NCBI GenBank assembly: GCA_003224755.1
Contig: QHZR01000050.1
Span: forward strand, 1-37,826
DNA from: Acidobacteriota bacterium
Lineage (GTDB): Bacteria > Acidobacteriota > Terriglobia > Terriglobales > Acidobacteriaceae
DNA length: 37,826 nucleotides
Direction: 5' to 3'
Within the stretch, counting starts at the first letter, position 1. Each line of letters opens with the position of its first letter. Below the pieces are notes generated by a model. The model searched no databases. It was not told the origin of the DNA and saw only the letters and a list, made by a program, of their open reading frames with translations. Made by a program: the position numbers and the translations under genes. This document shows, one piece after another, positions 16,931 to 32,140 of this stretch.

Positions 16931-16986
16931 TTGCGAGTTCGCAGCTTCGGGCGATTTCCTCTGCCTTACGTTCCCTCAAGGCTCCA

Positions 16987-17065
16987 GCCCCGTAGGGGCG
17001 GAACATGTTAGCCCAGGACGTAAGTCCTGGGTAATATGCGAAGACAAGCCAAGTCCCGGAGGGAC
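16987..17065. repeat. Triple-hairpin dispersed repeat, copy 1
   Basis: Three hairpins in series: GCCCC-GTA-GGGGC (16987-16999), CCCAGGAC-GTAA-GTCCTGGG (17012-17031) and GTCCC-GGA-GGGAC (17053-17065). It lies between coaBC and the uracil-DNA glycosylase gene. Two more copies (19731, 30658) have the same order of hairpins with changed but still paired bases. Confidence 0.8.
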
Positions 17066-19561: not shown

Positions 19562-19730
19562 ACAGGTGAGTTGTAAGCAGTGGCGGAGCTGAGATGGCAG
19601 GTACAGTTTTCGAGTTGCCCGGACTCCCCGACTGGCGCGGAGAGCCGAGACCTTCAGAAATCCAGCCCGATAGAGTCTGAGTGAGAACTCAAACTCCGAA
19701 CCACAAGTGGCAAGCGAATCGTAATTCCCA

Positions 19731-19808
19731 GCCGCGAAGCGGCACCAGAATACAGCCCAGGGCGGAAGCCCTGGGTGCAAGTGCGAAATGACTCAGCTCC
19801 AAAGGGGC
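19731..19808. repeat. Triple-hairpin dispersed repeat, copy 2
   Basis: GCCGC-GAA-GCGGC (19731-19743), CCCAGGGC-GGAA-GCCCTGGG (19756-19775) and a weaker GCTCC-AAA-GGGGC (about 19796-19808). It sits in the 400-bp divergent gap 19562-19962, in which no gene is seen. Stem bases differ from copy 1 but remain paired. Confidence 0.78.
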
Positions 19809-20760: not shown

Positions 20761-21108
20761 TTAAGCCGCCTTGCGTTTCGATTCGACGGGCAATCCGACG
20801 TCCTGCCATGCGCGGAATCCGTCCTTGAGCGCCCAGACGTTTTTGTAACCGCGTTCTTGGAGTTTCAGCGCCAAACTGGCGCTTGAGCCCTCGTTCGGTC
20901 AAGTACAGTAAGCGACGACGGGCCTGTCCTTGGGAATTCTGGGCAAGTTCGCTTCCAAATCGTCCACACGCACTCGGATCGCTTCCGGTATCTGCGTATC
21001 CGATTCCGCCCAAGCCTGCGGATTGCGAGTGTCGATCAGAGTAAAGTCCTCTCCCGCGTCCATTCGCCTTTTCAATTCCTCAACTGTGATTCGCGGAGCG
21101 TCAGCCAT
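20761..21108 (-). CDS. Rhodanese-like sulfurtransferase with in-frame UGA (candidate selenoprotein)
   Basis: A 115-residue single-domain rhodanese if the UGA at 20899-20901 is decoded. The ATG at 21108 is preceded by AAGGAG at 7 nt. Residues 1-69 show rhodanese features: TVEELKRRMDAGEDFTLIDT, then PQAWAESDTQIPEAIRV and DRPVVAYCT, with Cys68 the expected sulfur-carrying Cys. Codon 70 is TGA. After it the same frame continues PNEGSSASLALKLQERGYKN and VWALKDGFRAWQDVGLPVE to TAA, exactly the rest of the fold. In the family form I remember, the residue at the UGA is usually Cys (YCxCPNE). A hairpin downstream fits the bacterial SECIS rule. The alternative is a nonsense mutation giving a dead 69-aa stub. 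No sel genes are in this window. Confidence 0.7.
20867..20883 (-). promoter_or_regulatory. SECIS-like hairpin downstream of rhodanese UGA
   Basis: On the minus strand AGCGCCA-GTT-TGGCGCT, a perfect 7-bp stem with a 3-nt loop whose first base is G. The loop starts 22 nt after the UGA. Published bacterial SECIS criteria ask for a loop 16-37 nt from the UGA with a G in its first two positions. The hairpin is inside the coding region, as bacterial SECIS elements are. Confidence 0.5.
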
Positions 21109-21239
21109 GGTGAATCTCCTTCGCTCGACCTCAAATAATAGATGCCGCATGACTCTGTATGTTGCCCGCGCAGGCAAATCGGAGCCCTCATTTGCAGCCT
21201 TGCACTGAGACTTAACATCGAACGCGACGAGGTAGCCAG

Positions 21240-21557
21240 ATGGCGAAAAAATCAAAGGAATCAACCCGGAACTCTGACTTGGACTCGCTCAAAGGCTGGC
21301 AGCAGATCGCCGCTTTTCTGGGGCAACCAATCTCAGTCGCGCAACGCTGGGCAGACTCAGGAATGCCAGTGGAAAAACACGGGCGCTACGTCTCTTCCTC
21401 GCGTAAAGAATTGAATCGCTGGTTGGGACGCGAGTCTGCTGGAGAGCCGGTGCAGATCGCAACCGTGAGCACTGATCTCAATTCGGAACTAACGCGCAGT
21501 CTGACACTCATTCGAAAGCACAGTGGTGGGAGAACCACGAAAGCGAAAGTAGCATGA
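21240..21557 (+). CDS. Small helix-turn-helix (excisionase/MerR-like) protein
   Basis: A 105-aa protein. Residues 16-60 (LKGWQQIAAFLGQPISVAQR and WADSGMPVEKHGRYVSSS) look like a winged HTH of the excisionase/MerR-like kind, with a C-terminal ELNRWLGRES helix. The tail is basic (KHSGGRTTKAKV). There is no ligand or sensor domain, so it is a bare DNA-binding protein. I recall similar proteins as common and multi-copy in acidobacterial genomes, without a defined role. A GAGG stands before the ATG. It is divergent from the rhodanese across about 130 bp and lies next to tRNA-like sequence, so a link to a lost mobile element is possible but unproven. Confidence 0.75.
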   Translation: MAKKSKESTRNSDLDSLKGWQQIAAFLGQPISVAQRWADSGMPVEKHGRYVSSSRKELNRWLGRESAGEPVQIATVSTDLNSELTRSLTLIRKHSGGRTTKAKVA

Positions 21558-30458: not shown

Positions 30459-30657
30459 AGGGCCCCAGGTGTTGAGAACTCTCCCCTTAACTCAATGATC
30501 AGGCAATTCATCACAGAAATGGTAGTGGTGAAGTTCAGGGCGAAGATCACTGAAAGTTTTACCACAACCAGTCGCTAGTGGTTGGTGGTCGGTGGCGGGT
30601 GGTCAACAGGCTTAGTGGCTCAGGGAATCCAGACTCTGACATCCTAATTCCGTCGGA

Positions 30658-30736
30658 GCCCCGGCGGGGCGAACGAACTTAGCCCAGCGCTTCAGCGCTG
30701 GGGAAAAGCAGCAAAAAGAGTGAGTCCCGCAGGTAC
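30658..30736. repeat. Triple-hairpin dispersed repeat, copy 3
   Basis: GCCCC-GGC-GGGGC (30658-30670), CCCAGCGC-TTCA-GCGCTGGG (30683-30702), and a decayed third hairpin GTCCC-GCA-GGTAC (about 30724-30736). It lies in the 330-bp gap 30459-30789 along with degenerate GGTTGGTGGTC-type heptamers (about 30575-30605). Confidence 0.78.
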
Positions 30737-31210: not shown

Positions 31211-32140
31211 TCAGTGCCCCTGATCTTCGAGGAATTTCTCCACTTCCAATGCCGCCATGCATCCGGAACCGGCAGCCGTGATGGCTTGCCGGTAGCGGCG
31301 ATCTTGCACGTCTCCGCAGGCATAGACACCCGGTACTTTAGTGAAGATGAAATTCGTCGTCTCCAAATACCCATCCTGATCGGTATCCAACTGACCCTCG
31401 AAGATCTTGGCATTGGGAATGTGGCCAATTCCGAGAAACATTGCACTGGTCGGGAAGTTCCACGATTTCCCGTTGTTGACCTCACGCAGCTTCAGTCCGG
31501 TCACTTCTCTTTGCGAGGCGTCATAGACATCTTCAACAATCGTGTTGGTAAGGAATTGGATCTTCTCGTTTTTCTGTGCGCGTTCCAGCATGATCTTCGA
31601 AGCGCGGAATTCCTCGCGGCGATGAATTAGCGTCACCTTGGTGGCAAACCGAGTAAGGAAGAGCGCCTCTTCCATCGCCGAGTCTCCACCGCCGATTACT
31701 GAAATCTCTTTGCCCGAAAAAAAGAACCCGTCGCAGGTGGCGCACGATGAAACCCCGTGGCCGATCAGCGCTTGCTCATTCGGCAGTCCCAGCCAACGTG
31801 CCGACGCTCCGCTGGCAATAATGAGCGTTTGCGTCTCGACCGCATCTTTGCCCACCTGAAGCGTGAAAGGACGTTTGCTGAGGTCCGCCGCAGTCACATG
31901 CGCCAGTTTGTATTCGGCGCCAAAACGCTCCGCTTGGCGGCGCATATTGGCAATCAGCTCTGGGCCCTGAATTCCGTCCGGAAATCCGGGAAAATTTTCC
32001 ACCAACGTGGTCAGCGAAAGTTGGCCGCCGGGCTCGTGCCCTTCCAACACCAACGGATTCAGCTTTGCCCGTGCCGTGTAAAGCGCGGCGGTGTGCCCGG
32101 CGCAGCCTGATCCGATGATCACAACATCTCTTCTGTCCAT
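31211..32140 (-). CDS. trxB: Thioredoxin-disulfide reductase
   Basis: Cytosolic FAD/NADPH enzyme that keeps thioredoxin reduced, 309 aa. The FAD motif is GSGCAG (10-15), GGQLSLTTLVENFPGF is typical of the family, the redox-active site is CATC with Cys133 and Cys136, the NADPH motif is GGGDSAMEEALFL, and the end YACGDVQDRRYRQAITAAGS is standard. Note that the first motif has an extra Cys13. The ATG at 32140 is preceded by no clear Shine-Dalgarno. The TonB_C gene follows after 85 nt with its own palindromic control site, so it is probably a separate transcript. Confidence 0.97.
   Translation of the reverse strand: MDRRDVVIIGSGCAGHTAALYTARAKLNPLVLEGHEPGGQLSLTTLVENFPGFPDGIQGPELIANMRRQAERFGAEYKLAHVTAADLSKRPFTLQVGKDAVETQTLIIASGASARWLGLPNEQALIGHGVSSCATCDGFFFSGKEISVIGGGDSAMEEALFLTRFATKVTLIHRREEFRASKIMLERAQKNEKIQFLTNTIVEDVYDASQREVTGLKLREVNNGKSWNFPTSAMFLGIGHIPNAKIFEGQLDTDQDGYLETTNFIFTKVPGVYACGDVQDRRYRQAITAAGSGCMAALEVEKFLEDQGH

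Follow-up and report, generated by a model that had tools for sequence, protein, structure and literature searches.

Bacterial selenoproteins with a rhodanese domain and a Cys-x-Sec (CxU) motif are already catalogued, with predicted status: they are listed as 'Rhodanese-like domain-containing protein form 3, CxU' in a 2026 review (PMC13188914) and as 'COG0607 form 2, CxU' (PMC9312934), and NCBIfam contains a model for a 'rhodanese-related (seleno)protein', NF041203 (rhodanese_LYCAU). A sequence-only reading of the DNA studied here (hereafter the window, a stretch of 37,826 nucleotides from a soil bacterium of the Acidobacteriota) had stated that rhodaneses are among the reported selenoprotein families. 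NF041203 was also the best NCBIfam match of the rhodanese-like protein that we predict from this window. The protein agrees with the model in its single rhodanese domain, its YC-x-U motif (YCTU), the position of Sec two residues past an invariant Cys, and the interchange of Sec and Cys among homologues. Its score was 107.5 bits (102 in the genome scan), below the curated cut-off of 115. The model was matched by 30 of 30 aligned homologues, and a match over the cut-off was found in only 1 of 297 searched genomes of the phylum. Compared with this last sequence (L080), the window protein lies in a separate branch of acidobacterial short forms, the separating branch being moderately supported. On the strength of its motif, UGA codon, machinery and SECIS element, we file the gene as a putative bacterial CxU rhodanese selenoprotein that formally scores under the NF041203 cut-off. 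A literature search of partial coverage found no paper on the acidobacterial CxU rhodanese set.

Three other kinds of rhodanese invite comparison. The single-domain rhodaneses of the GlpE, PspE and Alr3790 type share the fold of the window protein (PDB 1gmx, 3ilm, 3nhv, 6mxv) but have no Sec, whereas the window protein has the CxU motif and an active-site loop two residues longer than that of the 3tp9 type; on the GlpE thiosulfate sulfurtransferase model (NF001195) it scored 38.3 bits, below the curated cut-off of 102. TsoB (NF045694, UxxxxU) likewise has Sec in the active-site loop of a rhodanese domain and gave a weak domain-level match to the window protein (31.7 bits), but its Sec positions are different and it resembles a rhodanese/DsbD fusion, so that it belongs to a different family. 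The third kind are the fusions of a CxU rhodanese domain to a VTT/DedA membrane domain, which are widespread among relatives. One of them, with an in-frame UGA, is a second CxU rhodanese, and predicted selenoprotein, of the source genome itself (L110 2426-3559, contig C435); its rhodanese domain is C-terminal to the VTT/DedA domain, and the gene has the same hairpin at the same spacing as the window gene. The fusions differ from the window gene by the membrane domain in front, by their placement on other branches of the tree and by repeated switching between Sec and Cys.

The predicted coding sequence (115 codons, rhodanese fold) lies on the minus strand at 20761-21108, from an ATG at 21108-21106 to a TAA at 20763-20761, and is preceded by a Shine-Dalgarno sequence, AAGGAG, at 21116-21121 (minus), 7 nt 5' of the ATG. 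Translated with TGA read through, it gives MADAPRITVEELKRRMDAGEDFTLIDTRNPQAWAESDTQIPEAIRVRVDDLEANLPRIPKDRPVVAYCT-U70-PNEGSSASLALKLQERGYKNVWALKDGFRAWQDVGLPVESKRKAA*, with a single TGA. This codon, number 70 (20899-20901, minus), is predicted to be read as Sec and stands in the context Y67-C68-T69-U70-P71-N72-E73. It is followed by 45 sense codons before the TAA. Cys68 (TGT, 20905-20907, minus), which opens the C-x-U motif, is invariant in 30 of 30 aligned homologues. The Pfam rhodanese domain (PF00581) matched residues 8-102, on both sides of the UGA, with 57.8 bits against a gathering cut-off of 22.2 (1.6e-15). The frame proposed by the sequence-only reading was thus confirmed by translation and by a domain match that spans the UGA. 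Its expectation that normal gene calling would truncate the protein also proved correct, since a plain open reading frame call stops at the UGA and gives 20899-21264 alone. UGA is an ordinary stop codon in the source genome and terminates 12 of the 24 genes of the window, which indicates that the genetic code is unchanged, with no reassignment. A promoter scan found no promoter, and two terminator-like sites were both on the opposite strand. An Rfam scan of the region of the gene gave no match. Elsewhere in the 38-kb window there are three copies of the Acido-Lenti-1 RNA (RF01687), at 16986-17031, 19730-19775 and 30657-30702, all on the minus strand.

We searched for homologues in 150 related genomes and in the GTDB species genomes. 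The short-form homologues (about 28 loci, 44-81% identity) all had UGA at this exact codon, which speaks against a chance reading frame, while distant homologues, which are in many cases fusions with other domains, had either UGA or a Cys codon at position 70. UGA exchanged with Cys and not with Trp. The closest relatives that bear a name belong to the order Terriglobales of the Acidobacteriota, Candidatus Sulfotelmatobacter among them; in a plasmid collection, only distant rhodaneses (<60% identity) were found. Residues D26, R28, C68, residue 70 (Sec or Cys), P71, E73, G87, G97 and W101 were invariant in alignment A2. Changes between Sec and Cys numbered 8 on a maximum-likelihood tree built from 73 domains, at least 5 of them on well-supported branches. 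The median dN/dS in a 20-sequence clade was 0.142 on the 5' side of the UGA and 0.143 on its 3' side, pointing to purifying selection of equal strength on both sides. The frames downstream of the UGA were intact in close relatives, except for one-base frameshifts 3' of the UGA in L041 and L065, which retain the hairpin described below; these frameshifts may be either assembly errors or (recent) pseudogenes. Synteny comparison of the homologue loci showed no conserved neighbour genes, save among a few close loci, and therefore no operon-based function or substrate could be deduced from the context. A gene for a thioredoxin-reductase-like flavoprotein is present in the same window (31211-32140) and is not linked to the rhodanese gene.

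A bacterial SECIS-like hairpin, AGCGCCA-GUU-UGGCGCU, is found at 20867-20883 (minus), with a stem of 6-7 bp, a 3-nt loop opening with G, and 22 nt between the UGA and the beginning of the loop. The constraints published for bacterial SECIS elements are a loop of 3-9 nt, a stem of 4-16 bp, a G in the first two loop positions, a spacing of 16-37 nt and a minimum free energy of at most -7.5 kcal/mol (PMC13188914 Fig. 2A). With its 3-nt loop, 6-7 bp, G in first position, 22-nt spacing and -8.7 to -10.3 kcal/mol, the window hairpin satisfies all of them. Among synonymous recodings of the sequence, 108 of 1500 satisfied the general constraints and 106 of 5000 recreated the window stem. The hairpin covers codons 76-80 (AGC GCC AGT TTG GCG), at which codon identity between same-residue pairs of 20 relatives was 1.0, 1.0, 1.0, 0.9 and 1.0, compared with a mean of 0.44 for the 87 other codons, none of which reached 1.0. 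Correspondingly, pS was 0.027 in codons 76-80 versus about 0.75 elsewhere. In L034, two amino-acid substitutions (SSTSLV in place of SSASLA) turn a G-C pair of the apical stem into A-U and leave the stem intact, which makes one compensatory pair.

Further evidence for the hairpin came from the contrast between Sec and Cys genes. It was present, with the right spacing and a G first in the loop, in 59 of 59 UGA genes as against 3 of 14 Cys genes, these three retaining hairpin-like pairing. An earlier count (57 UGA and 11 Cys genes) gave p = 1.9e-10 without correction for relatedness. When phylogenetically independent pairs were compared, the hairpin followed Sec in every informative pair, the 5 supported pairs being too few for significance. 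Covariation was slight because the stem hardly varies (RNAalifold term -0.03; control shuffles scored no lower on covariation). When the 54 nt surrounding the UGA were folded as a single sequence, the result was unexceptional compared with shuffles (z -0.70), and thermodynamic stability alone is therefore no evidence for the hairpin. The case for a functional RNA element, which we consider probable, rests on the freezing of synonymous sites and on the Sec/Cys contrast. An extended lower stem (columns 12-16 with 43-47) was dropped, as it was paired in just 76% of cells.

A second rhodanese paralogue, with its UGA elsewhere (YC-x-x-x-x-U-H-A-S, or C-x4-U), immediately precedes the CxU gene in four loci. 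It lies in L054 (near 2578-2910), L063 (near 447-790), L064 (2581-2910) and L065 (near 2580-2910), and was also seen at L113, L114 and L117. A near-invariant hairpin, GCCGCCCGUGAAYUGGCGGC, is found 3' of its UGA; the Cys homologues L115 and L116 are without it. The paralogue has no NCBIfam model of its own, its best domain matches being far under the cut-offs, and we consider it a candidate for a separate rhodanese selenoprotein.

The source genome (5.68 Mb, 628 contigs, 87% complete) contains all four components of the Sec machinery. It has a tRNA-Sec with anticodon UCA (69.9 bits), SelB (376.7 bits, over the curated cut-off), SelA (two stretches, 537 bits summed) and SelD (348 bits summed). 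The SelA profile match (contig C317, and also in genus relatives) is split near profile position 138/139 within one open frame, which suggests a small lineage-specific insertion. The SelD gene (L111 1120-2469, minus, contig C86) also carries an in-frame UGA, close to the N-terminal end (VKAAG-U-ASKLSP) and at the place of the catalytic Cys or Sec of SelD proteins, and SelD is thus itself a predicted selenoprotein.

Among the matches listed, a UGA rhodanese was found in at least 67 of the 150 related genomes; at least one of selA, selB and tRNA-Sec was present in all 67 of these, compared with 53 of the 83 others (Fisher p = 1.7e-9), and selA in 65 of the 67. SelB was not found in several draft genomes with a UGA rhodanese. 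A renewed search for SelB recovered pieces in G042, G043 and G083. In G003 (99% complete) and G035 (96%), SelB was not found despite the presence of UGA rhodaneses, SelA and tRNA-Sec, which is harder to account for; the renewed search gave partial matches alone. In length and score these resemble the matches that the N-terminal GTPase half gives in the source genome in addition to the true SelB, and we take them to be EF-Tu.

We put the probability that the window gene encodes a selenoprotein, with Sec at its UGA codon 70, at about 0.95. This Cys-x-Sec pair had been proposed by the sequence-only reading and is supported by the machinery, the conserved UGA, the SECIS-like hairpin and the equal selection on both sides; the same reading had also admitted that a mutation of TGC to TGA could explain the UGA, and this did not hold. 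Two findings that it had named as refuting Sec, a genome lacking the machinery and close relatives with a normal codon and a decaying downstream frame, were looked for, and the opposite was seen in both cases. TGC and TGA are indeed one base apart, distant homologues have Cys at position 70, and L041 and L065 are frameshifted 3' of the UGA, all of which would suit a sequencing or assembly error, or a fresh nonsense mutation, in what would be a pseudogene or a normal Cys rhodanese. However, about 28 species (44-81% identity) with independent assemblies share the UGA at this codon, which rules out a lone TGC-to-TGA sequencing error, and the intact frame, the dN/dS of about 0.14 3' of the UGA and the frozen synonymous sites just downstream argue against both an error and a pseudogene, so that this explanation is very improbable. 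It is even harder to credit that the UGA is a true stop, with a downstream frame that decays and a 69-residue N-terminal rhodanese fragment as the product. Such a fragment is the output of standard gene calling, but purifying selection 3' of the UGA matches that on the 5' side, and the rhodanese domain requires both halves, the helix after the active-site loop beginning only at residue 71. Because frame evidence alone does not name the residue at position 70, one may also think of readthrough by another route (a reassigned codon, a near-cognate tRNA or generic readthrough) that would insert a residue other than Sec, for instance Trp or Cys. Against this stand the use of UGA as a stop in 12 of 24 window genes, its exchange with Cys and not Trp, the complete Sec machinery with a SECIS-like hairpin, and the fact that UGA genes track the machinery; we hold it for highly unlikely. 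As far as sequence comparison can do so, the comparative evidence shows that codon 70, a UGA, is translated and does not act as a stop, and it makes a TGC-to-TGA error, a pseudogene or a reassigned UGA appear effectively excluded. From established bacterial Sec biology, we infer that SelA would charge the tRNA with selenophosphate from SelD, itself a probable selenoprotein, and that SelB with Sec-tRNA-Sec would bind the hairpin and insert Sec70.

An AlphaFold2 model of the window protein, made from a 30-sequence alignment, showed a confident rhodanese fold (mean pLDDT 90, pTM 0.84), and its Foldseek matches among solved structures included the rhodanese domains 3tp9, 6mxv, 3ilm and GlpE (1gmx). 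In the model, a strand (64-67) is followed by C68-T69-U70 and by a helix starting at residue 71. Compared with 3tp9, the solved domain that it matches best, the protein has 2 extra residues in its active-site loop. The UGA had been described as adjoining the codon of the active-site Cys. This is plausible from the strand register, as profile alignments pair C68 with the Cys at the catalytic position in 3tp9 and in 3nhv; the alignment with 6mxv, on the other hand, puts U70 itself on that position.

Redox pairs are often located at the start of a helix, and a C-x-U pair resembles the redox pairs of other selenoproteins. Since the strand of the model ends at residue 67 and the helix begins at 71, C-T-U-P would sit at a helix start in the manner of such pairs. 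The function that we infer and favour is that of a Sec/Cys redox pair acting on sulfane sulfur or disulfides and reduced by thioredoxin. Within the active-site loop, where the helix starts, C68 and U70 would make up the redox pair (C-x-U); Sec70, or C68 aided by Sec70, would attack a sulfane sulfur, a disulfide or another oxidised thiol substrate, the partner residue would resolve the intermediate by way of a Se-S bond, and the pair would be recycled by thioredoxin or another thiol reductant. We think it somewhat probable that C68 and U70 act as a redox pair with a Se-S intermediate. The protein might instead be a classical sulfurtransferase and no reductase, with a C68 persulfide (or a U70 selenenyl-sulfide) passed to an acceptor. 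The rhodanese fold would fit this, as would the pairing of the catalytic-position Cys with C68 (3tp9, 3nhv) or with U70 (6mxv); the C-T-U-P sequence, which stands at a helix start where a short active-site loop is usual, and the likeness of C-x-U to the redox pairs of other selenoproteins, speak against it, and we regard this as a real possibility, though on the less probable side. With the favoured redox pair, the role would be that of a sulfane-sulfur/disulfide reductase or a sulfurtransferase in which selenium makes the reaction faster or the enzyme less prone to over-oxidation.

A bolder proposal, which we consider speculative and rather unlikely as a whole, is that CxU rhodaneses are selenium-dependent thiol redox enzymes and not sulfurtransferases, with a thioredoxin-type C-T-U-P pair in a rhodanese fold, and that the expanded set of Acidobacteriota (stand-alone CxU proteins, VTT-membrane-fused CxU proteins and the C-x4-U paralogue sometimes directly upstream) would amount to a selenium-dependent system of sulfur handling in soil that has gone unrecognised. 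The window protein, of 115 aa, is a small test case for a C-x-Sec pair in a rhodanese fold. The NF041203 model of NCBIfam could be broadened to include it. Normal annotation, moreover, cuts short a set of rhodanese genes that is widespread in acidobacteria, and the clade of the window gene adds a near-invariant SECIS-like hairpin to a selenoprotein family that has so far merely been predicted.
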